A stretch of 23,809 nt of DNA from a virus, in the IMG/VR virus record IMGVR_UViG_3300034104_003870, positions 1 through 23,809 of that record; one strand, given 5' to 3'. The translations under genes and the position numbers were made by a program. Under the pieces are notes generated by a model, which saw only the letters and a program-made list of their open reading frames with translations, had not been told where the DNA came from and did not search any database. Shown here piece after piece: positions 1,543 to 22,808 of the stretch (positions are counted from its first letter, which is position 1; each line of letters starts with the position of its first letter).

Positions 1543-1549
1543 TATTTAC
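1543..1549 (-). promoter_or_regulatory. GTAAATA late-promoter-like box, 5 nt before ATG
   Basis: On the minus strand GTAAATA is followed by TTGAT and then the ATG at 1537. No Shine-Dalgarno lies between box and start. It is the G-variant of the CTAAATA box seen at seven other minus-strand positions. The T4-type late promoter core is TATAAATA; assignment here is by resemblance and position. Confidence 0.45.
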
Positions 1550-1578
1550 TCATATTTTTTAAACCGCTGTTGTTAGCG

Positions 1579-2442
1579 TTATTCTTTGACCACCTGAGCA
1601 CTGAGACTGCGAAGATTAAATTCGGCTTGATCTATTTTTAGATCTCCAGTGGGTTCAAACAACACTTCAAGAATGTACCAGAAATAGCCTGGTGGTGGTT
1701 GGTCAATCACTGTGCTGAACACAGTTTCAATTTCTGTCAACAATCCTGTGCCTGTGATACCATCAATCTGATACACTTTGCGACTCACAGTTTTGTCAAA
1801 GTCAAACAAGAAGTCTGGATTTATAGGGTCATTGTTGGGAAAGCCCACATACCTATTGACTTCCACAGTGTAGGTTAGATCTCCACCAGTGCTGCTGACA
1901 TAACTCATGATGTTGCTGAGTTGTGCAGAAATAAACACACGGTCAGTACCACCTGTCACAGTCACACGAGCATTTGAATCTGTTGAGTTTAATTGGTCGT
2001 TGGCATCGTACTCAATTGTGCCACCGGTAAGGTCATCACCTATGCCTGGATAACTTGCTGCTGTGCGAATAATAACAAAAGTGGTTGTGCATTGAACCAC
2101 ACCAATGGCACCTGATCCACCATTGTAGAATGTGTTGGTCCAGCCAGCTCCAAATGTGTTGTTGCCAGGTTTGAACGGTGCTGTTGGTTGTGCTGATGTA
2201 AAATTGTATTGAAATGTTCTGTCATCAATCTGTTCTGCACTGCTGCATGAAATAGGCGGCACATAGATTGATTCTGGCGTGGTGGAGCCGTAGGGACGAC
2301 GAAAGTTGCCTGTTAGGTATCCTGTTTCATAGGCACTGAAGCCTTCAAAGTTCTGTCCCAGGCCACCTGGGCCTGACAGCACATAGTTTAGGCCATCAAC
2401 CAGACCTTGTTGATCACCAGGCTCAATAGGAAATTGACTCAT
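1579..2442 (-). CDS. Beta-rich virion protein of unknown function
   Basis: A 287-residue protein. The ATG at 2442 was chosen because it overlaps the TAA of the upstream gene (TAATG), the coupling used elsewhere in this tail block; a longer in-frame version to 2496 would lie inside that gene. The sequence is rich in Thr, Gly, Asn and aromatic residues with alternating hydrophobic positions, as in beta-sandwich virion proteins, and shows no signal peptide or membrane segment. Cysteines are few. Its place between the nozzle-like protein and the repeat-rich coiled-coil protein suggests a tail-tip or fibre-associated component. I do not recognise a family; receptor-binding or tail-assembly roles are both possible. 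Confidence 0.8.
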   Translation of the reverse strand: MSQFPIEPGDQQGLVDGLNYVLSGPGGLGQNFEGFSAYETGYLTGNFRRPYGSTTPESIYVPPISCSSAEQIDDRTFQYNFTSAQPTAPFKPGNNTFGAGWTNTFYNGGSGAIGVVQCTTTFVIIRTAASYPGIGDDLTGGTIEYDANDQLNSTDSNARVTVTGGTDRVFISAQLSNIMSYVSSTGGDLTYTVEVNRYVGFPNNDPINPDFLFDFDKTVSRKVYQIDGITGTGLLTEIETVFSTVIDQPPPGYFWYILEVLFEPTGDLKIDQAEFNLRSLSAQVVKE

Positions 2443-4361
2443 TAGCGGTCGTCCTCCACCTGTGTATACTGCCACGTTGTGGCTGAACACATCCAAATGT
2501 CAGCGTTGCTGGTGTTTGAAATTTCAATGGCATGCACACGAAAAGCGTTTTGGTTGATCTGGCACCAAGGATTGTTGGTGTCTATCTCCATTTCAACAGG
2601 TGTTTTAACAGCAGGTTCTGATCCCACTGAGTTGGCGCCTTCCACTGTGATTGAAACATTGCCTGTTGATGGGTACTCAGGCAGTTCATTGTTGTTCATG
2701 TTTACTACTTCGGGCAGGATACGATGAACCATGCTCAAACTTGAATAGTTGGGCAAGACCTTGACATTGTCTCTGCGGAAACTTGATGCAATGTTGCCAT
2801 TGGGGTTGGCATTGGCTGTGAGAAAACTGTAGCCTTGATCTTTCATGACCAGTTGTTGATTGGTCAAGCCACGAGCATACACCACTGTTCTTGAACCTTC
2901 GTCAAATGTCCAGACAGGCAGGCTTGAGTCTGTGGTGTCTGACCAGATTGGTGATTCAGAAGCAAATGTAGCACTGCTTACTTCGCGTGGTGCGTTCCAG
3001 CAGTCCAGGTCATATCTATAACTAATCATCTTGTTGGGTACACCATTCACAATAGGGTTTAGAGCACTTGCGTATTCTGGCTTTGATGTGTAGTAGATTT
3101 CAACTTGGTTGCGTTGTGTGTTGACTTCCATGAATATTCGTTGAACATAGGCAGGATCCAGCTGATCAAACAACCAGTTTTTGAGTCGTTGATTGCCCAG
3201 TCCAGTAAAGTTCTGTCCATCAAACACCCACACATCGCGTGAGTCAATGCCATACACTTCTTTGTCAGTGTTGGCCCATGCATTGCTGGTCAACATACCA
3301 CGGCCCTGGTTGTAGAGTCGCACACCCAGAATAGGTGCTGATGTTGTGGTATAGTTGATTGGGCTAAAAACCACAGTGTCCCAGTACGAGCTTAGAAACA
3401 ACTGACCGTTTGATGGAAACGCATCCACACAGGTGCCACGCAAGGGCACTTCAAGTTGGTTGGCCACATTGGTCACAGTGGGTTGCCATGTTAGTGGTGC
3501 TTCGTTGAGTCCAAACGCTTGGCTCCATTGAACTGTGACAGGAAACTCCAGGATCTCATCGTTGATGTCTGTCACAGTTAGGTTGCCAGCCACAAGGATT
3601 GAGCCCACATTGGGTGTGTTGTAGATACGCATCCAACCAGCGTAATAACTCTTCCAGTTGGGGTTGTAGTTCCATTGAAACTTGGGTGCCACAGTACCGC
3701 CGCCTGGGAAAGCAGCACCTGGTATGGCCAAGTAATCTACATAGGCTGTGGTGCCACCTGTGACAGTGAACACACCATCATAGAATGTGTTCACATCTGA
3801 AATAACAATCTGCTCACCAGCAGCATAAGGAGTAGTCACTGCACTTGAGAATGTGAGTCGTTGTGTTGTGGGTGATTGATATTGAATGTCATCAATGTCT
3901 GCACTCAAGGTGTTGGAATACAACACCAGCACAGCAGCATCTTGATCAGGCAAGAACATTGGCGGGTTGATACTGTCATTGAAAAACGGCACAGTGCCGT
4001 TCCAGGCTTCTGTGATGTTGGTGCTTTGTGTGTAGCCTGTGAATGGCACACCACCAGGTGTGATGTCATACCAGTTGTCATAGCCATTGCTGGCCCACCA
4101 GCGTCCTTCTGTTGTGGCAGCAATGAACCAAAATTCACCATTGCGTCTAAATCCAGAACTCACAAATGTGGGTGTGCCAGGAATAAAATCCAGGATCTTT
4201 TGATCGCCAGCCATTGATCTGATGCCACGCACATCAGTTTCCACATTTTCACCTGCGTTGTATTCATTGGGTCCCAGTGCCGTTGATGGCACATCGGGTG
4301 AGAATGTCATCTTGGCAAATGGGACTCGGGCTTCTTCAAAACTTGATTTAATTTGTGCCAT
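2442..4361 (-). CDS. Large tail protein, nozzle/stabilisation-like (T7 gp12 or P22 gp10 type by context)
   Basis: A 639-residue protein. The N-terminal part has the pattern NVETDVRGIRSMAGDQ and then Trp-, Gly- and Asn-rich repeats such as FWFIAATTEGRWWASNG and VWVFDGQNFTGLGNQ, as in beta-propeller-like tail nozzle proteins of short-tailed phages. Residues near 165-230 form a Thr/Gly/Val-rich block (YAAGEQIVISDVNTFYDG) resembling small beta-domain insertions in phage structural proteins. The start has AGGAAC about 6 nt upstream, and the preceding gene ends 4 nt before it. Size, composition and position after the fibre and lectin genes support the call, but family assignment is inference; P22 gp10-like stabiliser and T7 gp12-like nozzle are the closest models I know. 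Confidence 0.8.
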   Translation of the reverse strand: MAQIKSSFEEARVPFAKMTFSPDVPSTALGPNEYNAGENVETDVRGIRSMAGDQKILDFIPGTPTFVSSGFRRNGEFWFIAATTEGRWWASNGYDNWYDITPGGVPFTGYTQSTNITEAWNGTVPFFNDSINPPMFLPDQDAAVLVLYSNTLSADIDDIQYQSPTTQRLTFSSAVTTPYAAGEQIVISDVNTFYDGVFTVTGGTTAYVDYLAIPGAAFPGGGTVAPKFQWNYNPNWKSYYAGWMRIYNTPNVGSILVAGNLTVTDINDEILEFPVTVQWSQAFGLNEAPLTWQPTVTNVANQLEVPLRGTCVDAFPSNGQLFLSSYWDTVVFSPINYTTTSAPILGVRLYNQGRGMLTSNAWANTDKEVYGIDSRDVWVFDGQNFTGLGNQRLKNWLFDQLDPAYVQRIFMEVNTQRNQVEIYYTSKPEYASALNPIVNGVPNKMISYRYDLDCWNAPREVSSATFASESPIWSDTTDSSLPVWTFDEGSRTVVYARGLTNQQLVMKDQGYSFLTANANPNGNIASSFRRDNVKVLPNYSSLSMVHRILPEVVNMNNNELPEYPSTGNVSITVEGANSVGSEPAVKTPVEMEIDTNNPWCQINQNAFRVHAIEISNTSNADIWMCSATTWQYTQVEDDR

Positions 4362-4364
4362 TGG

Positions 4365-4646
4365 TTATGTTCCTGCTTGTTCGCGACCTGAAGTAGCGTA
4401 TAATTCTTGTGCTTGTTCAGCTGTGAGATTGTTGATCCAACCTGTGCTGTTCCACACATGACCATAATACACAGTGGCATTGGTATGTGTGGGATCAAAT
4501 TTTGTGCTGTCGCGAGTTTGTGCGGCAGCATCGCCCACAGGGCGTTGTCCTGCAGCAATGGTTGCAAATGTTGCCTGATCTATCTCACGCCACTGATAAC
4601 CACGCAGCGTGCCATCTTGTAAAACACAACTCAATCTATAATACAT
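4365..4646 (-). CDS. Small virion-block protein of unknown function
   Basis: A 93-residue protein with ATG at 4646 and AAGGA upstream (GATCAAGGATAAAAGATG). It begins MYYRLSCVLQDGTLRGYQWREI and contains an HTNATVYYGHVWN stretch and an amphipathic C-terminal segment. It has no membrane segment or known motif. It stands 3 nt before the nozzle-like gene and directly after the lectin-like gene, so it is likely made with the tail proteins, perhaps as a fibre-associated factor or chaperone. No family recognised. Confidence 0.75.
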   Translation of the reverse strand: MYYRLSCVLQDGTLRGYQWREIDQATFATIAAGQRPVGDAAAQTRDSTKFDPTHTNATVYYGHVWNSTGWINNLTAEQAQELYATSGREQAGT

Positions 4647-4649
4647 CTT

Positions 4650-5405
4650 TTATCCTTGATCATTGTCACATGTGGTAGCACCATTGGCACCATCCCAATG
4701 CACCAACTGTGTGGTAAATTCTTCAACAACAAAAGGTGCTGTGGGCACAGTTAGACTTCCTGAAGCAGGATACAGTGCTGTGCCAACCGTGATATTGAGT
4801 TCATCAAAATACACAAATTGACTGCCATCAGAGCCTTGAGCATTGCCAAAAGTGATTTGTTGGCCGCCACTGTTGTCAGCAAAATTTCGAGTGCCGCCAC
4901 CAGAACCTTGTGTGGTCTGTTGTGTGCCATCTACCCAGAAAGAGATAGTGGTGCCTGACCTTTGTATCACTATCCAATACCAGGTGTCATTGCTCCAGGT
5001 AAAGTTGCAATAATCTAAGTCGGCCTGGCCGCGGGCAAAAATGTTTAACCCGTCGCGAGTAGTAGCATTGAAGTTTGGTCCAAAACGGAATCCCAATCCA
5101 CCGATGGTGTTGTTGGACATAATGTCTTGCCAACGGTTGGTGGGTGTGCTGGAAGTCATTCGAGCCCAAAAACTTATGGTAAAATCACCAGTGTTCACAT
5201 CCATAAATGTGCGATCTCCTGACGATGCATAAAATCCACTGGTGGTAGCCTGGTTTGAATCAGTGTACATGCTGGCAGTGCCAAACTGGAATTGTGCTGT
5301 TGACAATTCAGCAGCACCCTCAGCAGTCCAAGTTGTCAGCGGATTGGTAAATCCTCCTGCGGTCCAGGCACGAGACAACCAGGCTGTTTTTGCTGATCCC
5401 AACAT
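4650..5405 (-). CDS. LamG/concanavalin A-like lectin domain protein
   Basis: A 251-residue protein that is almost entirely one jelly-roll lectin-like domain. Diagnostic stretches are GDFTISFWARM (about residues 73-83), NDTWYWIVIQRSGTTISFWVDG in the middle and VYFDELNITVGTALY near the C-terminus, the usual strand order of LamG/concanavalin A-like (laminin G type 3) domains. Such domains bind glycans or are structural parts of phage fibres. The ATG at 5405 overlaps the stop of the fibre gene (TAATG), so the two are translationally coupled and probably work together in host recognition. There is no signal peptide, which fits a virion component. The glycan target cannot be read from sequence. Confidence 0.85.
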   Translation of the reverse strand: MLGSAKTAWLSRAWTAGGFTNPLTTWTAEGAAELSTAQFQFGTASMYTDSNQATTSGFYASSGDRTFMDVNTGDFTISFWARMTSSTPTNRWQDIMSNNTIGGLGFRFGPNFNATTRDGLNIFARGQADLDYCNFTWSNDTWYWIVIQRSGTTISFWVDGTQQTTQGSGGGTRNFADNSGGQQITFGNAQGSDGSQFVYFDELNITVGTALYPASGSLTVPTAPFVVEEFTTQLVHWDGANGATTCDNDQG

Positions 5406-7720
5406 TACACAAACTCCGGTGAAACTGTGGTCAAGTAAGTGACTGTTCCACGTACATTGGCTGCTGTCACAGATATCATTGTGACTGCGTTGGCTGTGGC
5501 ACCCACTGTTGACACATTGCCAGCATACTTGTATGTGCTGCCTGTGGGCAAGGTCACTGTGTAAGGTGTTGACCCTTGTTCCACAATAATTGTGAGTGTG
5601 TCTACTTGTGAGTCTGTGTTGGTGCCATCGCTGGCACTTGTGACCATGTTTGAATATCCTGTAATGGTGCAGTTGCCTGTGGGTGCAATATTGTGCACCT
5701 GTGCTGTGTTTTTGTCTATGGCAAAACTGCCTGATGTAGCAGTGGCTGCTTCAAACTCGTGATATCGCTTCAAGCTACCCAATTGCACCTGTGCCACATT
5801 GTCTTCGTTCATCAAGAAGTAATAATTGGTAGCACGACGCCAGTTGTTGGTGTTGCTGAGGCCATGTGTGGCAGTAGTGCCAGGCATGTAGAAACCATAC
5901 ACATTGGTTGGTGCTGTAGTGCTGGTCACAGTGCCACCAAAATTGCTGAAAAAGCTTATGGCTGATGTTGTATTGCTGCTGGTGCCTGTGATTGTCTGAA
6001 TCTGACCCACAACACCTACAGCATTGCCCACATTGGCATTGGAGCCCACTGAGATACTGGACTGTGATCCAGCAACATGGCTTACAGTGGCAGTTCCGCC
6101 CATGTCTACGGTGCTGCCACTCACTGTAATATTACCAATGCCAACAGCACTACCAACACCAGTGGCAGTAGAATACACAGCACCTGCTGATATTTGTTGT
6201 GTGCCGTTGCCCATAAACAACATACCCTGCAAGGGTTGTAAACGACGAGCGTTGTTGGTCAATGTAGCACCGCCCATGTCAGCATACAGCGTAGATGTAG
6301 TCAGACGCTGTGCCATGTTGGTGTCAGAGTTGCCAATGTTGTATTTGTCAATCACAGCCAGGGTGCCGCCGCGGCTGATTGTCAGTGGATCCACATTTGA
6401 CCCAAAGTTGCCATTGTAGCCATTGCCTATGGTAATACGCTGTGGGCTGGGCGTGGTATTCAAATCAACAGCATTTATACTCTTGATGTTGTTGTTGGCC
6501 AGGCTAATAATGATATTACCAGTGGTTGTGTTGGTAGTAGCATTTAGGTTGGCACCAGCGACATTACCTGTGGCTGTTATAGTAGCCGGAACAAATGCGC
6601 CGCTTACAATTAAGTTACCACCTGAAATGTTGGCTGTGGTTGTGATGTTGCCAGTTGCAGTAATAGTGTCAACCGAAGTGATACTGCCACCGGACACACT
6701 TAAATTGCCAGTCACAGTATTGCCAAACACCACCAGGTCAGTATTGACCTGTAGATTGGCGCCAATTTCAGCAGCTCCCAGTCCTGTGATTTTACCACTG
6801 AACTGCACATTTCCTGTTGAACTCAAAATTCCAGGGCTGTATGTAAATCCTGTTGTGCCAGCTAGGACACCACCGTTGTTGTATTGGATTTCTCCACTGC
6901 TGCCGCCTGGAGTGGCAGTTGAGACAATACCAGTTAGTAAACTACCATTGCCAATGAAAAATCCGCCGCTGGTAATATTGCCAGCTAATAAAGGTGCATT
7001 TTGTATTCCTGACCCTACCAATGGATCGTTAAACGATATAGCTTGATTTGCTGCTGCATTCTGAATCTGAGCAGTTTTCAATACACCTGGCAAGAAAAAA
7101 CTGCCAATTACATTGCCTGTGATAGAAATGTTGTTGGCATTGGTGCCTGATGCAAGAAATTGGGCCACATTGGCGTTGCCATATGATGTGGTAATACCTG
7201 TGAGCAAAGCACCGTTGCCCAGGACATAGTTGCCAGACACATTTCCAGCTGTGATCAAATTACCACCAGTAATATTGCCAGTGGTCTGAATGGTGTTTGA
7301 ACCAAAGTTGGCCAACAAGGTCACAACATTGGCGTTGCCATAACTTACTGGCAGGCCTGTGAGCTGTGATCCATTGCCCAGGATGTAATTGCCTGACACA
7401 TTGCCAGTGGCTGACACATTGCCAGTCATGGACAATGCTGTGCCAGTGTAGGACAAGTTGGATGTGCCAGCTAGGGCACCGTTGTTGTTGTAAATAATCT
7501 GTGTGTTAGACCCAGGTGCTGCAATGTTGACATTGGCAATCAGAGTGCCAGTCACTGTCAAGTTACCAGTAACTGTTTCGTTGCCTGACACCAGGAGATT
7601 GCCACCTATAGCAGCATTGCCTGAAACATTTAGATTGGTAGCAAACAGCGTGTTGCCGATTGATACGGTGGTGTCAACACCATATAAGCCTGTGGTGTTG
7701 TTGGGTTGGATAATTGGCAT
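5405..7720 (-). CDS. Tail fibre with GN-rich repeats
   Basis: A 771-residue fibre-like protein rich in Gly, Asn, Thr, Val and Ser. The N-terminal half is built from short beta-strand repeats: GNVSGNYILGNGSQLTG at residues about 106-122 recurs as GNVSGNYVLGNGALLTG at about 159-175, a 53-residue period, with further NGSLLTG-type copies later. Such GNISGNY/LGNGSxLTG repeats are common in fibres of aquatic tailed phages. The C-terminal third is less repetitive and contains a YHEFEAATATSGSFAIDK segment, likely the distal or attachment part. The start at 7720 has AAGGAAAAG upstream. Its length, repeats and coupling to a LamG-like gene indicate a host-binding fibre; which end binds the particle is inference. 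Confidence 0.88.
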   Translation of the reverse strand: MPIIQPNNTTGLYGVDTTVSIGNTLFATNLNVSGNAAIGGNLLVSGNETVTGNLTVTGTLIANVNIAAPGSNTQIIYNNNGALAGTSNLSYTGTALSMTGNVSATGNVSGNYILGNGSQLTGLPVSYGNANVVTLLANFGSNTIQTTGNITGGNLITAGNVSGNYVLGNGALLTGITTSYGNANVAQFLASGTNANNISITGNVIGSFFLPGVLKTAQIQNAAANQAISFNDPLVGSGIQNAPLLAGNITSGGFFIGNGSLLTGIVSTATPGGSSGEIQYNNGGVLAGTTGFTYSPGILSSTGNVQFSGKITGLGAAEIGANLQVNTDLVVFGNTVTGNLSVSGGSITSVDTITATGNITTTANISGGNLIVSGAFVPATITATGNVAGANLNATTNTTTGNIIISLANNNIKSINAVDLNTTPSPQRITIGNGYNGNFGSNVDPLTISRGGTLAVIDKYNIGNSDTNMAQRLTTSTLYADMGGATLTNNARRLQPLQGMLFMGNGTQQISAGAVYSTATGVGSAVGIGNITVSGSTVDMGGTATVSHVAGSQSSISVGSNANVGNAVGVVGQIQTITGTSSNTTSAISFFSNFGGTVTSTTAPTNVYGFYMPGTTATHGLSNTNNWRRATNYYFLMNEDNVAQVQLGSLKRYHEFEAATATSGSFAIDKNTAQVHNIAPTGNCTITGYSNMVTSASDGTNTDSQVDTLTIIVEQGSTPYTVTLPTGSTYKYAGNVSTVGATANAVTMISVTAANVRGTVTYLTTVSPEFV
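7176..7420. repeat. Repeats of about 159 bp in the fibre gene
   Basis: Two units, near 7176-7260 and 7336-7420, share TTGCCCAGGA and TTGCC(A/T)GACACATT(T/G)CC at the same spacing. They encode the two GNVSGNY-x-LGNG-xx-LTG segments. Third-codon positions differ freely, so the duplication is old and held by protein structure. Confidence 0.7.
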
Positions 7721-7732
7721 TTGCTCTTTTCC

Positions 7733-8722
7733 TTATTTGATGTTGTATTGGCGATACTGTCGTGGTTGCCATACGGATGTCATACGAGTGTGACCTCCTG
7801 ACCATTTGCCAAGGTTGTTTTGATCCATTACAATGTTCCAGGCATTGTCATATTTGCTGGCATAGATAGCTGCGTCTTGATCATTGTGACGCTTGATGTA
7901 GTATTCACGCAAGGTAGCATACACATAGCCTTCAGGCCATGATTGCAACACTGCATTGTTTTGAACTGTCTGATCAGTTAGACCCACATTGGTCACTGTG
8001 CCTGCTGTGGGCGTGGTGCCTCCAGTGGCTGTGAATGTGATTGAAGTTGAACTGGGAATTGAAGCCACTGTGTATACACCACCAGCACCTAGGCTACCTG
8101 TGCCAGCATTGGCTGATATCTTGTCGCCTACGCTGAGTCCTGTCACCGTGGTCATACCTGTGATTGTGGCAGTCCAAGGTCCTGTGCCTGTGATTGATCC
8201 AACTGTGCCTGTTGTGCTTACAATGGCATCATCCACAGGTGTAAACAACAAGGGCCATGATTTGTAGTAGTACAGGTTGATCAGGTCGCCTTCGCCCACA
8301 TACGGCAAAAACTTGTAGCTGTCATACACTTCTGAGAACTTGCCGCGGATCACAGCAGGCACATTCACTGGCGATAGATACAACTGAGCAATCATGCCCT
8401 GTGTGATAATGTCTCTATCACCAATACGGTCATACACAATCCAAGGACCAGTGGAACTTGAGGTGACGCCGCCAGGATTGCCCTGTTTGAAAAACACAAT
8501 GGGCTTGTTCATGTCAGCTGGGATTGGTACCATGCCTTGTGCGTCTGCCACGCCAATGTTCACAGGATCATAGGGATCGCTACGCAAGGCTGGCAGTTCC
8601 AGGTTACGCATTGATAATTCAGCAAGAAAGATACACTGTTTGATTTCAGTGTCGTTTGCGGATCCTGTGAAGTCCTGGATGTATTCAACCAGTGCGTCAC
8701 CGTTGGGTATTAAGAAACTCAT
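7733..8722 (-). CDS. Head-to-tail adaptor-like protein with beta-rich insertion
   Basis: A 329-residue protein. The N-terminal part (FLIPNGDALVEYIQDFTGSA, then helices around IKQCIFLAELSMRNLELPALR) and the C-terminal part (LREYYIKRHNDQDAAIYASKYDNAWNIVM) look like the helical adaptor (gatekeeper) proteins that sit under the portal of short-tailed phages, which are usually about 200 residues. Between them, at about residues 165-255, lies a Thr/Gly/Ser-rich block (TATITGMTTVTGLSVGDKIS to TATGGTTPTAGTVTNVG) that explains the extra length. ATG at 8722 has AAAGGAC upstream and overlaps the previous stop (ATATGA). Context between capsid and fibre genes fits; the family call is inferred. Confidence 0.8.
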   Translation of the reverse strand: MSFLIPNGDALVEYIQDFTGSANDTEIKQCIFLAELSMRNLELPALRSDPYDPVNIGVADAQGMVPIPADMNKPIVFFKQGNPGGVTSSSTGPWIVYDRIGDRDIITQGMIAQLYLSPVNVPAVIRGKFSEVYDSYKFLPYVGEGDLINLYYYKSWPLLFTPVDDAIVSTTGTVGSITGTGPWTATITGMTTVTGLSVGDKISANAGTGSLGAGGVYTVASIPSSTSITFTATGGTTPTAGTVTNVGLTDQTVQNNAVLQSWPEGYVYATLREYYIKRHNDQDAAIYASKYDNAWNIVMDQNNLGKWSGGHTRMTSVWQPRQYRQYNIK

Positions 8723-9312
8723 ATTGTGTGTCCTTTAAAGAACTTTTGTTCGCCTACTCGAGCAGGATATGGCACATCAACAGGGATGGGCAACTTGCCG
8801 CCAGGATAACAAACATATTGATTGTATTCACGTTCTACCACCCGGTAAAACTGTGCTTTGAGTGTGCGGTCATGTTTGATAGCAGCCCAGGGCATGCCAC
8901 CAAAATACTGATCACTGATACGAATGCTCACAACATTGGGCAGGTCCATCCATTTGTATGTGAGTCGGCCATCATCACCAATGGGTGCCAAGGGATCATG
9001 GTGTCCTGCTTCGGCTGCTTTGCGATATTCAGCACAGCGGCGTGCCACTGCTTCAGCATTCTTTTGTTCACGACGAATGTAGAACTTGCCATCTTCACGC
9101 CCAGTGGTTGTGATGATGTTTTTGCTGCCGCTGAGACTGGTGCGTTTCCAATCGCCTTTCATGCTGCGATATAGCTGGTCGTTTTTGAGCAGTGTGTCTG
9201 CTACGCCGTTGTGATTTGTGACAATACCACCATGATCTTGACGCCAATAATCATAATTGCGTTCTGGATCTGTGTTGTCTAGGTATTCTGGTTGGTTGAT
9301 ATCTTGGCTCAT
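8719..9312 (-). CDS. Unknown protein of the head-tail block
   Basis: A 197-residue protein rich in charged and aromatic residues (YDYWRQDHGG, YIRREQKNAEAVARR, RVVEREYNQYVCYPGGKLP). No known motif is visible. The ATG at 9312 is preferred over a GTG at 9327: the latter would start inside the CTAAATA box, and from the ATG the box lies 5 nt upstream, as at several other genes. The gene is the first after the capsid terminator, so it opens the tail transcription unit, and it ends overlapping the adaptor start. It could be a head-completion or tail-assembly protein, but that rests on position only. Confidence 0.8.
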   Translation of the reverse strand: MSQDINQPEYLDNTDPERNYDYWRQDHGGIVTNHNGVADTLLKNDQLYRSMKGDWKRTSLSGSKNIITTTGREDGKFYIRREQKNAEAVARRCAEYRKAAEAGHHDPLAPIGDDGRLTYKWMDLPNVVSIRISDQYFGGMPWAAIKHDRTLKAQFYRVVEREYNQYVCYPGGKLPIPVDVPYPARVGEQKFFKGHTI

Positions 9313-9317: not shown

Positions 9318-9324
9318 TATTTAG
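9318..9324 (-). promoter_or_regulatory. CTAAATA late-promoter-like box, 5 nt before ATG
   Basis: Minus-strand CTAAATA, then TCCAT, then the ATG at 9312, with no Shine-Dalgarno. It sits between the capsid terminator (9358-9379) and the first tail-block gene, the place expected for a promoter. Confidence 0.55.
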
Positions 9325-9403: not shown

Positions 9404-10579
9404 TTAGACATAGCTGTTGCCTGCACCAGCGTTGATACGCTGAACGAAGCTGGCTCCACGCGGTGCACTTACTGCTGCACCAGTTGTTGAGATGTTGTGC
9501 AACACGCCAACGCCTGCTGGGTTGCGAACAATCAATGTACCTTCCATCAAGAACTGATCCAATGAAGCGTCAGCATTGCTGAATACTTCGTTGTTGGGTC
9601 CTAGATCGCGGAGTGAACCCCACTGTACAACATCTTCGTTCAAGAAGTAGATCTGATCGCTTACACCAGCACTGTCCATTATCCAACTATCATATATCTC
9701 ATATGTGTAGTTGAAGTCACCTTCGTAAGTCTGGATTGTGTCGCCACGCTCCACATTACGACGGTTGATGCTGGTGTTGCTGTTCACGATGTTGTCAGAG
9801 ATCATGGTACGCAGGCTGGTTGGAACAACCATGGTACGGATCTTGGCATTGTAACGCTGTTCAGCAGTGGTGACCAATTGCTTGTAAATCACAGGCTGGA
9901 ACACTTGGTTAGTGAAAGTACCTGTGTAGAACTGGCTACCGTCAGCTTGAATGTTCAAGTTACCTACGTTGGCAGTGCTGCTGTCTGTAGATTCGTTGTT
10001 GGTGTTTGTGGTGATGTTGCCGATAGCAGCACCGCTGGGGTTGAAACTGTGTGTGCCAGCAAAAGCATCCAGGCTACCCATACGACGACCGCCGTCTTGA
10101 GCTGTGCCTGGGTTGGTAATTGCTGTACCAGTTTGGCCGCCGTACTTGGTACCAATTTGGTCGCCACGCACAAGTTGCATTTCCACATCGAACATCAATT
10201 CGATCAACTGCTTTACCTCTTGGTAGGCCTGCGGATCTCCGCCCGCCTGCATAACAGCACGAGCAGTACCACTAGCAGCGATAGTTGTTTGGAAGATCTG
10301 TGTGTAGTTGCCCAAGTTGTAACGGCTGTTACTCTCTGCGTTGCTTGTGCTAACTGCGGCACCTTCTTTCACAGCTTGTGCTGAAGGCAAGCGATAGATG
10401 TCGTCAGTCCACAATGGAAGTGTGCTGTTGACCTTGCGCTTTTTGCTCATACACATGTTGAGCACGGGGGTATCGTCTTTTACACGATTGGATACATCTA
10501 GATCTAAGTCTTTGACAACGATGTCAGCACCATATGCTGTTGTACCATTACCAATTTGACTGGTTGTAATTTCTGCCAT
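9404..10579 (-). CDS. Major capsid protein (DUF5309/N4 gp56-like, HK97-type)
   Basis: A 391-residue protein. The N-terminal pattern DDTPVLNMCMSKKRKVNST (residues about 35-53), followed by PLWTDD, EGAAVSTSNAESNSRYNLGN, TQIFQTTIAASGTA and a long helix with IELMFDVEMQLVRG, matches the layout I know for the DUF5309/N4-gp56 group of capsid proteins (TPF-type start, a W-x-TD element, then VSGT and a spine helix). The C-terminal half has SQFYTGTFTNQVFQPVIYKQLVTTAEQRYNAKIRTMVVP and ends in a short GAGNSYV tail. Gene order portal-scaffold-capsid supports it. AAGGAG lies 7 nt before ATG 10579, a stronger ribosome site than most here, as expected for an abundant protein. Confidence 0.92.
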   Translation of the reverse strand: MAEITTSQIGNGTTAYGADIVVKDLDLDVSNRVKDDTPVLNMCMSKKRKVNSTLPLWTDDIYRLPSAQAVKEGAAVSTSNAESNSRYNLGNYTQIFQTTIAASGTARAVMQAGGDPQAYQEVKQLIELMFDVEMQLVRGDQIGTKYGGQTGTAITNPGTAQDGGRRMGSLDAFAGTHSFNPSGAAIGNITTNTNNESTDSSTANVGNLNIQADGSQFYTGTFTNQVFQPVIYKQLVTTAEQRYNAKIRTMVVPTSLRTMISDNIVNSNTSINRRNVERGDTIQTYEGDFNYTYEIYDSWIMDSAGVSDQIYFLNEDVVQWGSLRDLGPNNEVFSNADASLDQFLMEGTLIVRNPAGVGVLHNISTTGAAVSAPRGASFVQRINAGAGNSYV

Positions 10580-10609: not shown

Positions 10610-11779
10610 TTATCTACCACCTCTGTTGCCACGAATCTGTGCGAGTCGCTGCACCAAGAGGTTGTCTCCGGCTTTTTTATCGCCGGCTTTGGCTTGTTCA
10701 CGAAGTTTGCTCACACCATCATCGCTGTTGCGTTGAGTGCTGGAACCTTTCCGACTGGTCAATTGTGCTATGCTGGCACCTGCTGTTTTGGGCTTGGCAG
10801 CGTTGCGGTATTTCAATCCGTCTCGCACCAGTCCCAGCAGTGTTTCATCTGATGATATCAGGTCAATGTTGGCCACTCCAGGCACAAGTTCATTACGGGC
10901 TCCGGTCCACATCTTTTCAACCTTGTTGCGCAGTTCGTTGTAGACATATTCGTTTTTCAACTCCTTGTCTTGAAACGCCTTGCGGTTGTTTTCCAAGATT
11001 TCCTGCACTTGCTGTCGGCGAACCTGACGGAACTGATCCACTGCTGGGCGTAGTCTTCCAATAACATCTTGCTGCTGGCGAATGTATTGCTCATTCTGCT
11101 GCATTCCTGCCTGGATCCTGGCCTGTTGGGCAGGATCATGTGTGGCTGCAAGTTGTTGTTGAAACACAGTTTGGTAACCCTGCGTCTTCACAATCTCATC
11201 ATAGGCCTTCTGCAGTTGCGGTTCAACTGTGAATTCCATTGCCAGTGTCAAACCTTCCTGGCGGCTACGAGTTTCCTTGATATATTCATCAAACTCAGCA
11301 CGCTCGATTTTCAACTGTCGGGCATCTTCGTGGATGGCTCCACCCTGTCCCAGTATAGCAGCGGCTCTCTTGGCATCAACTATGACTTCTTTACCGTTGC
11401 GGGTAAATTTGAATTTGGCATTGGGGTTTGTCTCTGCAAATTCAATAAAGTCTATGAGTTCTTCTGCCGAAGTATTGTCTGAATTATCGGTGTCGCTTAC
11501 AGACTGTTCAGTCTGGGCTGGTTCCTGTTCAGCGCCTTCATGCTGTTCCGGGGCAAAAATGTCGTCATCTTCTGGCACATCGGGTGCCACAGGGCTTGAG
11601 GCTTCTGCCTGTCCATCCTCTTGTCCTGTTGCAGTATCTTCGGTAGCACGAATCTGGTTACGCAGCGTTTGTTCACGCATCACGGCCATTTTCTCTGCTA
11701 TAGAACCCAAAGTCGGTCCTGCAGTGTTGTCAGTGGCCGCATCCGTTAACGGGATGTTAGGCTTGATCAGTTCTGTCAT
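10610..11779 (-). CDS. Scaffolding protein
   Basis: A 389-residue, highly charged protein. Residues about 40-95 are very acidic and Glu/Gln/Pro/Ser-rich (EDDDIFAPEQHEGAEQEP), and the middle is predicted coiled coil with many Gln and Arg residues (QQARIQAGMQQNEQYIRQQQ). The C-terminus is basic (IRGNRGGR), as in scaffolds whose basic tail binds the coat protein. The ATG at 11779 is chosen for its AAGGAAAAAC leader; an upstream non-ATG start at 11800 lacks a ribosome site. It lies between the portal and capsid genes, the standard scaffold position. No protease domain is visible, so it probably exits or is cut by another enzyme. Confidence 0.82.
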   Translation of the reverse strand: MTELIKPNIPLTDAATDNTAGPTLGSIAEKMAVMREQTLRNQIRATEDTATGQEDGQAEASSPVAPDVPEDDDIFAPEQHEGAEQEPAQTEQSVSDTDNSDNTSAEELIDFIEFAETNPNAKFKFTRNGKEVIVDAKRAAAILGQGGAIHEDARQLKIERAEFDEYIKETRSRQEGLTLAMEFTVEPQLQKAYDEIVKTQGYQTVFQQQLAATHDPAQQARIQAGMQQNEQYIRQQQDVIGRLRPAVDQFRQVRRQQVQEILENNRKAFQDKELKNEYVYNELRNKVEKMWTGARNELVPGVANIDLISSDETLLGLVRDGLKYRNAAKPKTAGASIAQLTSRKGSSTQRNSDDGVSKLREQAKAGDKKAGDNLLVQRLAQIRGNRGGR

Positions 11780-11826
11780 GTTTTTCCTTAAAATTTGCAA
11801 GGGCCTTGTGGTTACCTTGCTGTGAA

Positions 11827-11833
11827 TATTTAG
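11827..11833 (-). promoter_or_regulatory. CTAAATA box upstream of the scaffold gene
   Basis: Minus-strand CTAAATA overlaps the stop codon of the preceding gene and lies 47 nt before the scaffold ATG, which has an AAGGAA site. This is the long-leader class. The overlap with a TAA stop makes a chance match more possible here. Confidence 0.35.
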
Positions 11834-12238: not shown

Positions 12239-14518
12239 TCAGTGCCCATAATCTTGGGTCTTGCCCATTGCTATGGCCATGTAGTTGAGTTGTGTGTCTG
12301 GGTCAAGTCCTTGTGTTTCAGCAGTGATTTGTTCTGCTTTGACAGCATTGAGTGCTGCCACGCTGAGGTCTTTCTTTTCTGCTGGGCTAGGTTCTTTTTG
12401 TCCAGCAGCAGCCTTGCCAGATTCAATCATGGCTTTGATTTCTTCATCACTGGGCAGATATGTGTCAGCATCTTTGACACCCAGGATATACAGTGTTTCA
12501 CTGAATGGTCGCTTGATCTTTTGGTACACTGTTTCATTCAGCGTACCTTGTGCTACCATGCCTTGTGTTACTGCATAAAGATCTGTCTGACACTTCTGAA
12601 TCAGCTGCTGGCGTCCAATTGCGTTTTCTTGGCTTTGCATGCCCAGGGCCAATTCAATCTGAATGTGCTTGCGATCAGCCAGTTCCATGGCGTCCCAACG
12701 AGTGTAGTCCATAAACTCAGACTTGCTGTCAGGGTGGAACTTGGCAGCCAGGCGCTTGACACCATGGTCATCGCCGTATTGTATCAGAGTACGCCATACC
12801 AAGTAGATTGCTTGCTTGAGTCCATCCGCAGCATTGCGTACTGTGTTGTCTTGAATGATCTGGTTTGGTGTCAGTGCCAGTTGTAGTTTGACACCTGAGT
12901 TGCCGGGTGCCATAACTTCTGGATTGAATGTGTCCTGTGGTGTGGTCATACCAACCATGGCCATTGTGTCCTGCTGGATACGAGTCATGGCCACTTCCAA
13001 GAACTGGAGATTGCCTGCTGGAGGTGGCATTGGGTAAATGTCTTTGGCAGGATCAAATTTTGAATCCAGGATAAAGATGGCTGCTTCGCCGTCCTGCATC
13101 ATTTCAAAGTCCACACGGTCTGGCTTGACACCAATGCGTGGTGTTGCTGTCAGCAGGCCCAGTTGAATTTCTGCTCGTGCTGCTGATGTTTGGTATTCCT
13201 GCATGGGAATCACTGATTCAGCAATGCTCATACCGTAGAAGTTGCCAGGCAATGGTTTAGGACACATGTTGGCCACAGGGATAAACTCCACTTCACGGGC
13301 ACTGATAATGTAACTGCCACTATAGATCAGTTCAACCAGTTCCAGTTCACCATCACCATCAATGTCATATCGGTTCCACACAGTCACAACAGTGATCTGG
13401 CGGCTGTCTGGATCTGCTGATGCTGCACTTGAAACTGGCACACCCATAACAGGTACACTGTCTCTAGCGTGAATGGCCAGGTTGTTGAGCACTGAACCTG
13501 CTTGGTACGCACCGTTCATGTTGTATTCAGCGTGGCGTTCAAATTCGCTTAGATTCAAACCCGGATACAGTTCTGTGGCTTCCTGAATGGTCATGGGATC
13601 GTAGTAGCCGCAGAAGGGTTGATCTTCCATCTTGGGCACTGTGGGATCACAGATCCAGTAGTGTTGTGCGATAGGGTGGAACTTGATGTACAGGTTGTAG
13701 CCTGTGAGTTTGTATTTGGCTGTGTAGATTGTGTTGCGAGCAATGGCGTCATTCAACACAGACTCTTCACCTTCCAGCTGAGCTTGCTGAGCCATGTCCT
13801 GCATCTGAGTGGTATCGTCCAGGAATTCTTCTGAATCACTCATGCCTGCTATGATTGAATCCAGCATGTTGCGGCTGTTGTCTGCACTGACCTGCGGCAA
13901 GTTTTGTTGCACTTCTGCCATCACAGCTTCCATGTCAACTCCTGTGCGTCTGCGCATTTGTTGCACAGCATTCATGCCAGAATCTCGTGCTTGTTGTTCA
14001 AAAGCCAACAGTTGATCTGCTGTGCCCTGTGTGTCAACATAACGCACAATGGGTTCACGCACAGGCTTGATCATCATCATGCCGTTTTTGTGCATGTTGG
14101 CGTCCATGATCCAGCGTTCCATAATGAAATGCGGATCATTCATTTCATTGATCACATGACTTACCATGTTGGTGGCCTGTCGTGCTGCTTCTGCGTCAAA
14201 TTCGTTTTCAGGCACAAAGTCAAAGTTTACTTCACCATTGGGTGCAATGCCTTTGGCAATCACAGCAGTAGCATAATCTACCACAGGCTTCACACTAGGG
14301 TGAATATAATCTATGCCGTTAACGGGTGCTGTTGAGTCTGTGACTGCCAAACACAGGTAGTGGTAGTCTGACGCACGGTTCACAGCGTTCTTGGTGCCTA
14401 GATAACGCAGGTAAGATGCCATCTTGACATCCATCAGGTTCTTCATTCGCACAAAGTTGGCATTGATTTTACGGTTTTGGTTGATTCTCTCAACCGGGAT
14501 GTTTTTGATATCCAGCAT
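12239..14518 (-). CDS. Portal protein
   Basis: A 759-residue protein, the size of P22- and N4-type portals (about 725-765) and longer than T7-type connectors (about 535). The N-terminal region has RYLGTKNAVNRASDYHYLCL, then HPSVKPVVDYATAVIAKGIA; the middle has the wing and stem pattern with LVELIYSGSYIISAREVEFIP, MCPKPLPGNFYGMSIAESVIPMQ and TSAARAEIQLGLLTATPRIGVK. The stretch NFYGMSIAESV-x-x-MQ is typical of large portals, before the channel helix. A Gln/Asn/Ala-rich C-terminal part may form the barrel. It forms the dodecameric DNA entry ring that docks the terminase. AAGGAACG lies upstream of ATG 14518. Confidence 0.92.
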   Translation of the reverse strand: MLDIKNIPVERINQNRKINANFVRMKNLMDVKMASYLRYLGTKNAVNRASDYHYLCLAVTDSTAPVNGIDYIHPSVKPVVDYATAVIAKGIAPNGEVNFDFVPENEFDAEAARQATNMVSHVINEMNDPHFIMERWIMDANMHKNGMMMIKPVREPIVRYVDTQGTADQLLAFEQQARDSGMNAVQQMRRRTGVDMEAVMAEVQQNLPQVSADNSRNMLDSIIAGMSDSEEFLDDTTQMQDMAQQAQLEGEESVLNDAIARNTIYTAKYKLTGYNLYIKFHPIAQHYWICDPTVPKMEDQPFCGYYDPMTIQEATELYPGLNLSEFERHAEYNMNGAYQAGSVLNNLAIHARDSVPVMGVPVSSAASADPDSRQITVVTVWNRYDIDGDGELELVELIYSGSYIISAREVEFIPVANMCPKPLPGNFYGMSIAESVIPMQEYQTSAARAEIQLGLLTATPRIGVKPDRVDFEMMQDGEAAIFILDSKFDPAKDIYPMPPPAGNLQFLEVAMTRIQQDTMAMVGMTTPQDTFNPEVMAPGNSGVKLQLALTPNQIIQDNTVRNAADGLKQAIYLVWRTLIQYGDDHGVKRLAAKFHPDSKSEFMDYTRWDAMELADRKHIQIELALGMQSQENAIGRQQLIQKCQTDLYAVTQGMVAQGTLNETVYQKIKRPFSETLYILGVKDADTYLPSDEEIKAMIESGKAAAGQKEPSPAEKKDLSVAALNAVKAEQITAETQGLDPDTQLNYMAIAMGKTQDYGH

Positions 14519-16627: not shown

Positions 16628-18238
16628 TCAAGCATCTGGATTATAACTGCGCTTCCAGGCTGGCAACTTGTCTTCAACCCGGCGAACATAACGATCACGC
16701 TGTGCTGCCATTCGTTGTTGTGGTGTGCGGTTGTCCCAGGGTTCAGCAATGCCTTGCAGTGCTGCCAAGTAGGCGTAGCGGGCTGAGTCTATGCAGTCGT
16801 CTGGATCACTGAAACGACCCTTTTCATCCACGTGATAGTTCTGTGCTTCGTTCAGAAACTCTGTGCAGTTCTCATTGATGTAGAATGTGCCAAACTCCAG
16901 ACTCTGTCGCATGGCATTGATACCATAACTCTTGTGGTTGCTGCGTCGACCTTCAGAGTCAGGTGGATTCAGGATAGCACTCTGAACCACATTGAGTTCA
17001 TACTTTTCAAACAGTTGACGGATACTATCACTACTCATTGTGTAGCGTCCAGGTGTTGATGCATCAGCAGGCAGCACAATGGGTGTGCCAAACACTTCAG
17101 GGCGGAGCAAGTGGTTGATGTATTGGCTGGGCACTGCTTCTTCAACACCCTGAATCACAATCTGTTTGTGCAACCAGAATGTTTCTTCCCACGGATCCCA
17201 GTAGGCCAAGGTGATCACTGTTTTGTCGTTGACCAGTCCTAGATCCAGTGCAATGACCCGTTGGATATTTGGCATTTCGCGGAAGTTGAAATCACTAGGT
17301 TTATAGGTTGGCCAAGAGCGAAGTTGGAAAACAGCACCCTTGCCCATGATAGGCCGCCCTTGGATACGAGCCTCGCGTTCGTGCGGAAGATAATCTCGCT
17401 CCAGTTGGGCTCTGGTTGAGGCAAGTAGGAAGGGCTCTCCCCAAGGGTCATATTCGGGCACATCGTCCCAACTGACCCTAATATAGTCATAGCCCGACTC
17501 ACGATTCCAGAACTTGGAGACGAGTCCGTTAAGGCCTTTAAGCGGGGTAAAACTGCAGAGAACCATGCCTTGTGTTGTTGCAGTTCGGGTGACAATCTCA
17601 GAGAAGAAGTCATCTGGTGGTTGTTCATCAAATACCGCCAAGTCCAGTTTGAAACCCTGCAACTGGCGGACCTCCTGTGTGTAGTTAGCAAACAGCAAAT
17701 AACTGCGTCCACCAGAGGCGTGCAGTATCTCACAGCCTATGCAGTTAGCACCATCATTGCGCATGGTATCTGTCACAATGGCTGCACGTGGTATAGCACC
17801 AGTGCCCAGTTGTTGTTGCAGTTTGACATCGGGTGTGCCCAACAGTTCTTGTTGTAGCACAAGAGCAACCTGGCTCCAACCTTCACCAGCAACCATCACT
17901 GTGACAGGCCGGTCAAAGCGATGGCCTTGCCACCAGTCTGGATACTGTCCAGTAAGGTGCATGGCAGTTTCATAGCAGGTGCTTACTGTTTTACCAATAC
18001 GGTTGGCAGCAAGAATACCTCTACGGTCGTTCTGGGTAGTGAAGAATTTCAGCTGGTGTGCAAATGGTCTGAAGTATCGCAGTTGATTGAACTGCATGTC
18101 ATCAGCCACAGCAGTCACCAGGTCTTGTAGGCGTAGTTGTTGGTCTGTGGTCAGTGTCACATACTGAGCAGGCTCAATGTCGTGCTGATCACAAACCCAA
18201 CGCACAGCTCGACGCATTAGAACGCTGGGATTGATCAC
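16628..18238 (-). CDS. terL: Terminase large subunit
   Basis: A 536-residue ATPase-nuclease that cuts and pumps phage DNA into the prohead through the portal. The Walker A loop is AANRIGKT at residues about 77-84, the Walker B strand with catalytic acid is LAVFDEQ at 200-206, and coupling motif III is SFTP at 229-232. The nuclease part starts at VIALDLGLVNDKTVITLAYWD (Asp332 and Asp338) and ends with DPDDCIDSARYAYLAAL, giving the usual acidic metal cluster. Length is normal for the family. The start is GTG at 18238 with GGAG 8 nt upstream (GGAGTAAGTCGTG); the region is just after a small gene's stop. Confidence 0.96.
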   Translation of the reverse strand: MINPSVLMRRAVRWVCDQHDIEPAQYVTLTTDQQLRLQDLVTAVADDMQFNQLRYFRPFAHQLKFFTTQNDRRGILAANRIGKTVSTCYETAMHLTGQYPDWWQGHRFDRPVTVMVAGEGWSQVALVLQQELLGTPDVKLQQQLGTGAIPRAAIVTDTMRNDGANCIGCEILHASGGRSYLLFANYTQEVRQLQGFKLDLAVFDEQPPDDFFSEIVTRTATTQGMVLCSFTPLKGLNGLVSKFWNRESGYDYIRVSWDDVPEYDPWGEPFLLASTRAQLERDYLPHEREARIQGRPIMGKGAVFQLRSWPTYKPSDFNFREMPNIQRVIALDLGLVNDKTVITLAYWDPWEETFWLHKQIVIQGVEEAVPSQYINHLLRPEVFGTPIVLPADASTPGRYTMSSDSIRQLFEKYELNVVQSAILNPPDSEGRRSNHKSYGINAMRQSLEFGTFYINENCTEFLNEAQNYHVDEKGRFSDPDDCIDSARYAYLAALQGIAEPWDNRTPQQRMAAQRDRYVRRVEDKLPAWKRSYNPDA

Positions 18239-20481: not shown

Positions 20482-20633
20482 TTTTGTTTTCCTTTTGACT
20501 TCGAAGTCTTTGCTGCCGATCGCTTGGTGGCATACGCGATAGCCACAGCCTGACGAGGCGGTTTCCCCGCTGCGATTTCTGTCTTGACATTTTTGTCAAA
20601 CGCTTGTTTTGATTTGGACTTTATCAACGGCAT
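20478..20633 (-). CDS. 51-residue basic protein (MPLIKS type)
   Basis: A short frame from ATG 20633: starts MPLIKSKSKQAFDKNV, continues EIAAGKPPRQAVAIAYATKR and ends in a Lys/Ser-rich tail. Short basic proteins with the pattern MPLxKSxSxxAxxxN-(x)n-GKPxxQAVAIAY are common in phages and some bacteria; role unknown to me. The stop overlaps the next ATG (ATGA). CTAAATA lies 5 nt before the start and there is no Shine-Dalgarno. Confidence 0.88.
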   Translation of the reverse strand: MPLIKSKSKQAFDKNVKTEIAAGKPPRQAVAIAYATKRSAAKTSKSKGKQK

Positions 20634-20638: not shown

Positions 20639-20645
20639 TATTTAG
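20639..20645 (-). promoter_or_regulatory. CTAAATA box, 5 nt before ATG of the 51-residue gene
   Basis: Minus-strand CTAAATA, then ATCAT, then ATG 20633. It overlaps the TAA of the previous gene. No ribosome site lies between box and start. Confidence 0.45.
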
Positions 20646-21012: not shown

Positions 21013-21019
21013 TATTTAG
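21013..21019 (-). promoter_or_regulatory. CTAAATA box, 5 nt before ATG 21007
   Basis: Minus-strand CTAAATA, then TCTGC, then ATG. It directly follows the terminator at 21027-21051 and lies in a true intergenic gap, so chance overlap with a stop codon does not apply. Confidence 0.55.
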
Positions 21020-21026
21020 CGGAAAC

Positions 21027-21051
21027 AAAAAAGCCCTGCGTTTAACAGGGC
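21027..21051 (-). terminator. Rho-independent terminator before the late block
   Basis: On the minus strand GCCCTG, a 7-nt loop and CAGGGC, then TTTTTT. It stands 24 nt after the stop of the 66-residue gene and 8 nt before the CTAAATA box. Confidence 0.88.
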
Positions 21052-21074
21052 CAAAACCTATAAACAGGGAGGCT

Positions 21075-21313: not shown

Positions 21314-21625
21314 TTATTTCTTTCTAACTATTACGCTGAACTCGTAATGGTCCAGGATATCAGCAGGACCAAGACTACTGTGTGCAATCCTGGGATCTAC
21401 TTTGTCTTCAGGGAAGGCCTTTTGGGCTGCTTCATACAAGAACTTTAGTTGGTTCCTGTATTCTTGTTCTACTGATTCAAGATATGCTTTGGCTGATTTA
21501 TCATGCTTGGCATCTTGTTTGACCATTTCTAACTTGGTAAAAGTTTTGAGAACTGGTGTGATAAAATCAACAACGCGACTGTTGTCTTTCATGATATCTA
21601 ATGTGATGTCTTGTGGTGTTTGCAT
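21314..21625 (-). CDS. Small helical protein, likely early
   Basis: A 103-residue, charged, mostly helical protein (QDITLDIMKDNSRVVDFITP, LESVEQEYRNQLKFLYEAAQ, C-terminal HYEFSVIVRKK). ATG 21625 has a strong AGGAGG ribosome site and a near-perfect sigma70 promoter 35-63 nt upstream, unlike the late genes. This suggests transcription by host polymerase soon after infection. The function is unknown; host-takeover or regulatory roles are guesses. Confidence 0.82.
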   Translation of the reverse strand: MQTPQDITLDIMKDNSRVVDFITPVLKTFTKLEMVKQDAKHDKSAKAYLESVEQEYRNQLKFLYEAAQKAFPEDKVDPRIAHSSLGPADILDHYEFSVIVRKK

Positions 21626-21659: not shown

Positions 21660-21688
21660 ATTATAGCATGAGTTTGAATACTGGTCAA
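21660..21688 (-). promoter_or_regulatory. Sigma70 promoter for the 103-residue gene
   Basis: On the minus strand TTGACC (21688-21683), a 17-nt spacer and TATAAT (21665-21660), with TGC before the -10 giving an extended -10. The -10 is perfect and the -35 differs by one base from TTGACA. Points left to ATG 21625, and is divergent from the plus gene at 21710. Confidence 0.85.
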
Positions 21689-21698: not shown

Positions 21699-21705
21699 TT
21701 AAATA
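21699..21705 (+). promoter_or_regulatory. TTAAATA late-promoter-like box, 4 nt before ATG
   Basis: Plus-strand TTAAATA, then CACC, then ATG 21710. No Shine-Dalgarno between. It is a plus-strand variant of the minus-strand boxes and shows that the pattern tracks gene direction. Confidence 0.4.
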
Positions 21706-21709
21706 CACC

Positions 21710-22051
21710 ATGCCCAATTCAACACCAGTTCGCACACCCCTAGGTACCTTTGCCAGTGCAGCACAGGCAGCACGAGCACATCACTGTGATCGCTCAACCA
21801 TATTGAATCGTGTTCACGCTGATCCTGAAAACTATGTCATGGTTGTTCGTGAGCCTAGACTGCCTGTGCTGAAATCCATCTCCAATCCCAGTTGGCGTCA
21901 CTACTACAGTCTGGATCACGACGGTCGTGATGCTTGGTATCAGGCCTGGTGTAGGGCTGCTGACCTGGATCCTGATTCAGAAGCAGGAGGCAATGCTTTT
22001 TTTGATGCCTTGGATGCAGCAGCGGAGGCATCAGATGTGGAATCGAATTGA
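21710..22051 (+). CDS. Small DNA-binding-like protein (TPLGTF domain)
   Basis: A 113-residue protein. Residues about 8-45 (VRTPLGTFASAAQAARAHHCD, then RSTILNRVHADPENY) resemble the short repeat-type helix-turn-helix domains (NUMOD1-like) found in phage proteins and homing nucleases: a TPLGxF strand, then helices with a DRSTI recognition-like segment. No nuclease motif is present. The C-terminus is acidic (LDHDGRDAWYQAW ... DALDAAAEASDVESN). ATG 21710 is chosen for the TTAAATA box 4 nt upstream; a longer start at 21611 would lie across the divergent promoter. It may be a regulator of the adjacent early gene. Confidence 0.75.
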   Translation: MPNSTPVRTPLGTFASAAQAARAHHCDRSTILNRVHADPENYVMVVREPRLPVLKSISNPSWRHYYSLDHDGRDAWYQAWCRAADLDPDSEAGGNAFFDALDAAAEASDVESN

Positions 22052-22501: not shown

Positions 22502-22509
22502 AAGTCCGG

Positions 22510-22559
22510 TGCCGTAGGCATGGTAGATCCTGGGTGGGGGATTGCCGGCAGACCCACCC
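22510..22559 (+). other. Hairpin-rich gap between plus-strand genes
   Basis: Contains TGCC-GTA-GGCA at 22510-22520 and GGGTGGG (22532-22538) paired with CCCACCC (22553-22559). No U-run follows, so it is not a standard Rho-independent terminator. It may shape the 3' end of the upstream transcript or the start of the next. Confidence 0.5.
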
Positions 22560-22569
22560 ACCCCTGAGT

Positions 22570-22576
22570 GTAAATA
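22570..22576 (+). promoter_or_regulatory. GTAAATA late-promoter-like box, 4 nt before ATG
   Basis: Plus-strand GTAAATA, then TGCT, then ATG 22581. No ribosome site lies between. Confidence 0.4.
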
Positions 22577-22580
22577 TGCT

Positions 22581-22808
22581 ATGTTTATCACTGTTCAGAC
22601 CATATATCGTCGACGACGCACAGATCCTGCCAGTTGGCACTACGGCATCACGCGAACACAACCCTTGGATCCCGAGGTTGTGGCTTGGTATCAACGCTGG
22701 CTTCAAACTCAATCTGCCAAGGAGTTCCAGCACACAGCCGATTCCAACGGCCCAGCATTGCTTCGGGTAGATCTCGCCCGTGTGCCAACTGATCAATCAT
22801 GTCTGTGA
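22581..22808 (+). CDS. 75-residue basic protein, antisense overlap with the next minus gene
   Basis: The frame from ATG 22581 encodes MFITVQTIYRRRRTDPASWH, then DPEVVAWYQRWLQ and ALLRVDLARVP near the end. The ATG with a GTAAATA box 4 nt upstream is preferred over an earlier in-frame start at 22542. The last 161 nt lie opposite the end of the minus gene at 22648-23052, and both frames read like protein there. No family recognised. Confidence 0.6.
   Translation: MFITVQTIYRRRRTDPASWHYGITRTQPLDPEVVAWYQRWLQTQSAKEFQHTADSNGPALLRVDLARVPTDQSCL

Follow-up and report, generated by a model that had tools for sequence, protein, structure and literature searches.

The closest described counterparts of the element considered here are the late promoters of phage T4, TATAAATA at positions -13 to -6, and of the T4-like Aeromonas phage Aeh1, in which CTAAATA begins at -12 and is read by a diverged gp55 (PMC1524935). 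Late promoters of phiEco32-like phages are also single elements, tAATGTAtA, recognized by the sigma factor phi32_gp36 with RNA starting 6–8 bp downstream (PMC8948821), and leaderless genes in the Deinococcus-Thermus and Actinobacteria are led by TANNNT boxes, the -10 element of the host sigma-70 (PMC3160421). We analyzed a virus sequence of 23,809 nucleotides (nt), IMG/VR record IMGVR_UViG_3300034104_003870 (the window), in which a TAAATA box precedes ten genes at two kinds of distance. We consider it probable that this box, CTAAATA in its preferred form, is a T4/Aeh1-type late promoter that occurs in two arrangements, one of them giving leaderless messages.

The window contains 11 copies of TAAATA, compared with a mean of 5.4 in dinucleotide shuffles, three of 100 of which reach 11. 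Six copies lie 4–6 nt before the ATG of an open reading frame (ORF) of at least 50 codons, where 0.19 would be expected (binomial p=1e-8), and TAAATA ranks first of all hexamers at this distance, above the Shine-Dalgarno (SD)-type AAGGAA. These six are the boxes listed in a first-pass annotation of the window, and their positions and strands, spacers to the ATG (5, 5, 5, 5, 4, and 4 nt), and lack of an SD sequence in any spacer were all confirmed; the excess of the box is positional, and only one of the 11 copies is inside a gene. That list was not complete, as four more boxes are situated 47, 22, 19, and 22 nt before genes that have an SD sequence. Of the 10 upstream boxes, 7 have C directly before TAAATA. 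The 11 copies are as follows.

1543–1548, minus strand: GTAAATA, leaderless, 5 nt before the ATG at 1537 of a long Ala/Glu-rich putative structural protein (2–1537, open at the window edge)
9318–9323, minus strand: CTAAATA, leaderless, 5 nt before the ATG at 9312 of a 197-amino acid (aa) protein
20639–20644, minus strand: CTAAATA, leaderless, 5 nt before the ATG at 20633 of a 51-aa protein (phrog_2423); box in 26 of 28 orthologues
21013–21018, minus strand: CTAAATA, leaderless, 5 nt before the ATG at 21007 of a 121-aa protein like the terminase small subunit; TAAATA in 17 of 35 orthologues
21700–21705, plus strand: TTAAATA, leaderless, 4 nt before the ATG at 21710 (113 aa)
22571–22576, plus strand: GTAAATA, leaderless, 4 nt before the ATG at 22581 (75 aa)
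11827–11832, minus strand: CTAAATA, leadered, 47 nt before the ATG at 11779 of a 389-aa protein in the scaffold position, SD AAGGAA
14541–14546, minus strand: CTAAATA, leadered, 22 nt before the ATG at 14518 of the portal protein, SD AAGGAA
16614–16619, minus strand: CTAAATA, leadered, 19 nt before the ATG at 16594 (100 aa), SD AAAGGA
23075–23080, minus strand: CTAAATA, leadered, 22 nt before the ATG at 23052 (134 aa), SD AAAGGAA
7491–7496, plus strand: TAAATA, background copy, antisense inside the gene at 5405–7720 (minus strand), the sole intragenic copy

The box at 1543–1548 is found at the same site in a near-identical relative (G001) and 5 nt before the matching first long gene in four other genomes (G003, G004, G007, and G015). 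The ORF at 22581 is short and overlaps a conserved gene on the opposite strand; it has homologues at 48–58% identity, and in 8 of 10 homologues the box lies 5–7 nt before the ATG. The two genes concerned (22581–22808, plus strand, and 22648–23052, minus strand) are both conserved, with homologues for each, and share 161 nt in a tail-to-tail overlap.

The window is a 23.8-kb virus fragment with genes for phage terminase, portal, and head proteins. G001 (33,889 bp) is 99.9% identical to it across window positions 1072–21975 and its ends overlap by 260 bp, which implies a genome of ~33.6 kb on a circular map. IMG/VR holds >480 relatives by terminase and >520 by capsid; those that are near-complete are podovirus-like genomes of 33–37 kb. 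A scan of genome contigs with the capsid protein, as a search for the host, returned no relatives, and the phage collection searched has no isolate with a close capsid, the nearest being MW202484 (capsid 62% identity). No enrichment of the box before ORFs was found in MW202484, OR003940, MW202674, or MW202520, the nearest annotated phages.

The near-complete genomes have the box at the same genes. Across ten of them, 37 of 152 copies of TAAATA lie 4–6 nt before an ATG, with 2.1 expected (p=8e-35). We regard the chance that this is a compositional artefact of AT-rich sequence before start codons as negligible. While the window is ~53% A+T, the 14 hexamers of the same composition occur only 1–21 times at this distance in the ten genomes, the runners-up, ATAAAT and AAATAT, are two that overlap the box itself, and neither the rules of position and preceding base described below nor conservation across relatives would follow from composition; the hexamer ranking had already refuted it.

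Counts at orthologous genes, taken amid diverged upstream sequence, were in keeping with this conservation, and the loss of the box in relatives that the first-pass annotation had named as a possible objection was not borne out overall. The box was retained in 63 of 63 orthologues of the portal gene (mostly 19–28 nt before the ATG), in 56 of 59 orthologues of the 197-aa gene (at 4–7 nt; the three exceptions have GTG/TTG starts that were set wrongly), in 13 of 13 orthologues of a structural-type 240-aa gene, and in 38 of 57 orthologues of the scaffold-position gene (mostly 39–51 nt). Some orthologues of the small terminase-like gene have TAAGTA in place of TAAATA at the same spot. Genes internal to operons lack the box, as seen for the terminase large subunit (0/71 orthologues) and the adaptor (0/51). 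Because placement of the box recurs gene by gene, whether a gene is leaderless or leadered is largely fixed. Gene starts in this work were assigned by simple rules, and gene finders that rely on SD sequences may mis-set the starts of leaderless box genes. The main genes referred to are as follows.

12239–14518, minus strand: portal protein gene (phrog_1216), leadered
9404–10579, minus strand: major head protein gene (phrog_1328)
16628–18238, minus strand: terminase large subunit gene, without a box of its own
8719–9312, minus strand: conserved 197-aa gene between the capsid and adaptor genes, leaderless in every relative examined whose ATG was set correctly

The leader of the scaffold-position gene (11779–11832, minus strand, and orthologues) is longer than the others, at 39–51 nt, and contains a conserved GGTAAC...GGCCCT element, which is possibly a regulatory hairpin.

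Spacing statistics were compiled from 315 non-redundant sites. The distance from box to ATG has two modes, one at 4–8 nt (144 sites, 93 of them at exactly 5 nt) and one at 15–28 nt (116 sites), with just five sites at 9–14 nt. This gap is expected of a promoter, since leaders of that length could neither place the AUG at the 5' end nor accommodate an SD sequence. An SD sequence lies between box and ATG at 102 of the 116 leadered sites and at none of the 144 leaderless ones. At the 93 sites with 5-nt spacing, the base immediately before the ATG is T in 74 and C in 19 and never A or G, whereas in the SD genes of the same phages it is A in 137, G in 20, T in 50, and C in 42 (Fisher p=8e-32). In the leadered class, 82 of the 116 sites have A as the fifth base past the box. 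Most simply, these base preferences would mean that the polymerase initiates at a purine located 5 or 6 nt past the box, and that purines directly preceding the AUG are selected against. As there is no purine at -1 with 5-nt spacing, RNA should start on the A itself, and the proposal at first pass that these messages begin at the AUG thus agrees with the start-site logic.

The arrangement we favor is one in which CTAAATA acts as a single -10-like element, with TAAATA at -11 to -6, the preferred C at -12, and no -35. It would start most of the box-marked transcription units with structural genes, plus a small structured RNA. Where the box is 15–28 nt from the ATG (39–51 nt for the scaffold gene), RNA would start on a purine ~5 nt after the box and be translated from its SD sequence; where it is 4–6 nt away, position 5 after the box holds either a pyrimidine or the first base of the AUG, and RNA would begin exactly on the AUG and be translated as a leaderless message. 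Most likely, the box is read by the core RNA polymerase of the host, which a phage factor not recognizable by sequence would redirect. The idea that the box marks leaderless genes was not upheld, as the same box drives the SD-led portal, scaffold, and 240-aa genes and a non-coding RNA, and distance alone differs. If correct, this would be a clear case of a single promoter whose spacing alone decides whether messages have a leader, conserved across a broad lineage of uncultured phages and with the simple start-base rule that the base preceding the AUG is not a purine, and it would make leaderless expression of virion genes directly testable.

Supporting a role in transcription is the fact that a terminator-like hairpin with a T run is present within 70 nt upstream of 36 of the 144 leaderless sites, compared with none of the 116 leadered sites and 5 of 600 random positions; in the window, one such hairpin (about 21026–21053) lies upstream of the box at 21013–21018. 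In addition, the box precedes a family of structured RNAs of ~80–130 nt that begin ~5 nt after it and lack an ORF of their own there. These consist of a variable hairpin, the invariant TAAACGCAG, and then a strongly covarying hairpin, one stem of the RNA being paired in every one of 70 cells, with as many as four pair types. No family was matched in an Rfam search of the box-linked RNA, and in some genomes it overlaps short reading frames on the opposite strand. Its loci are as follows.

L174, 10600–10738, minus strand: structured RNA
L008, 4385–4522, minus strand: structured RNA
L035, 3445–3582, minus strand: structured RNA
G001, about 22647, plus strand: structured RNA, just past the end of the window
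L015, L033, L053, L064, L069, L124, L169, L179, L196, and L197: structured RNA in further contigs

An upstream terminator and a box before a non-coding RNA indicate a promoter rather than a ribosome signal. We therefore give little credence to TAAATA being a translation signal, either an A/U-rich ribosome-binding element or one for stop-coupled reinitiation with its TAA as the upstream stop. At 20644 and 11832 the TAA of the box does serve as the stop of the preceding gene, but most boxes in the window are clear of the stop codons of called genes, and the box also occurs 15–51 nt upstream with a good SD sequence between it and the ATG.

The box logo is [A/G]CTAAATA in both classes, and the upstream logo of neither has a -35 element, only a weak AT bias. 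The same phages have near-consensus sigma-70 promoters, TTGAC[CT]-N17-TATAAT, before small non-structural genes, and these are probably a second, early promoter class. The window has one example.

21660–21688, minus strand: sigma-70 promoter TTGACC-N17-TATAAT, before the 103-aa gene at 21314–21625 (identical region in G001, position 20594)

This arrangement suggests that early and late genes are divided as in phiEco32-type podoviruses, which likewise pair sigma-70 early promoters with single-element late promoters without a -35. The two differ in motif, phiEco32 encodes a recognizable sigma factor, and leaderless messages are not mentioned for that phage (PMC8948821).

The sigma-70 promoters also bear on whether the box is simply the -10 recognized by a primary or alternative sigma factor of a host that has many leaderless genes. 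We consider this unlikely. It would account for the lack of a phage-encoded specificity factor in the records searched, and -10 boxes ~12 bp upstream of the start codon, in place of an SD sequence, are common at leaderless genes of some bacteria, as in Deinococcus and Actinobacteria (PMC3160421). However, those boxes are TANNNT, whereas TAAATA in the same register ends in TA, with A rather than T as its sixth base; the near-consensus promoters in the same genomes suggest a conventional host sigma-70 distinct from the reader of the box; and motif and spacing equal those of a known phage late promoter (PMC1524935). The Deinococcus-type alternative raised by the first-pass annotation consequently fits poorly, while the resemblance it saw to T4-type late promoters is well founded, the core TAAATA being in the T4 register, the CTAAATA variant of Aeh1 being matched, and a -35 being absent.

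The likeness to Aeh1 is particularly close, comprising an identical seven-base motif with the preferred C at -12, the same start-site distance, association with structural genes, and SD leaders of similar length. In the 200 kb of Aeh1 examined, CTAAATA is mostly 18–28 nt before ORFs with an SD sequence and there is no leaderless group. Aeh1 encodes gp55 and gp45, whereas the present lineage has a large leaderless class and no detectable gp55. With T4 the lineage shares the core TAAATA, a -10 element alone, and use at late/structural genes, but the T at -13 and A at -12 of T4 are A/G and C here, the T4 promoter is read by gp55/gp33/gp45, and the genomes are podovirus-like, at 33–37 kb, rather than those of ~170-kb myoviruses. 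The genes with the box in the present phages are those for the portal, scaffold-position, structural-type 240-aa, 197-aa, and small terminase-like proteins, as well as some small genes and the non-coding RNA. Eighty gp55-bearing environmental contigs, which serve only as a spacing control because the scan was led by a cyanophage sequence and they are mostly cyanophage-like, lack a leaderless peak, with 10 of their 170 sites at 4–8 nt. Leaderless use of the box is thus particular to the present lineage among the sets compared.

Several points weigh against a T4/Aeh1-type late promoter. The search for a gp55-like late sigma factor proposed at first pass (phrog_234) detected none in 20 records at E<=1, while detecting Aeh1 gp55 at 5e-56 as a positive control. 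The Sigma70_r2 and Sigma70_r4 domains were likewise absent from all 20 records, and no single-subunit RNA polymerase was found in them, a weak negative since that search gave no hit in any control. Two conserved proteins were folded as candidates for a hidden sigma factor, and their models, of modest confidence, had no significant PDB or sigma-like match. Lastly, late timing is suggested by gene content only, and the site counts are not independent, the relatives being of common ancestry. Of the proteins that might read a promoter of the T4 late type in phages lacking gp55, we favor an unrecognized phage factor, followed by a host sigma factor, with the gp55 of a helper phage least likely.

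Virophages use the late promoter of a giant virus, and a similar dependence can be envisaged in which a T4-like phage infecting the same cell supplies the gp55 machinery that reads the box, making the small phages transcriptional parasites. The motif identical to that of Aeh1 (PMC1524935) and the existence of environmental gp55-bearing contigs with C before TAAATA are consistent with this, as is the failure to find gp55 or family-A DNA polymerase in any record. Recognizable replication genes are almost absent in most of the genomes, a DUF5906 helicase/primase being present in 4 of 19 virus records; these four led us to drop the argument that the phages lack replication genes and so are satellites. 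Helper dependence nevertheless seems very improbable, as the phages have a complete structural gene set and their own sigma-70 promoters, some carry the helicase/primase, and two accessory genes tested as a link to T4-like phages were found only in contigs of the present lineage or short fragments. Only slightly less doubtful is the wider proposal that late machinery is borrowed from a T4-like phage, as a bacterial counterpart of the virophages, or, in its milder form, that a new, unrecognized phage specificity factor has evolved to prefer CTAAATA as well and to set the start exactly at the AUG.

Other features of these genomes were noted. The long gene at the left end of the window runs on across the circle (window 1–1331 compared with G001 32559–33889) to encode a large repeat-rich protein with internal direct repeats of ~87% identity. 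All 10 near-complete genomes encode a ferritin/Dps-like protein (PF00210) along with one resembling acetyltransferases, the latter so labeled from its own sequence and its weak similarity to a single annotated phage gene (L168: 7247–7678, minus strand; 6505–6990 and 6992–7246, plus strand), and G001 additionally has a GroES-like co-chaperonin. In two contigs (L131, 10001–11435, and L132, 8412–9846) matches to the capsid gene extend ~265 nt beyond the usual span, which suggests an insertion, either an intron or an intein, in the major capsid gene.

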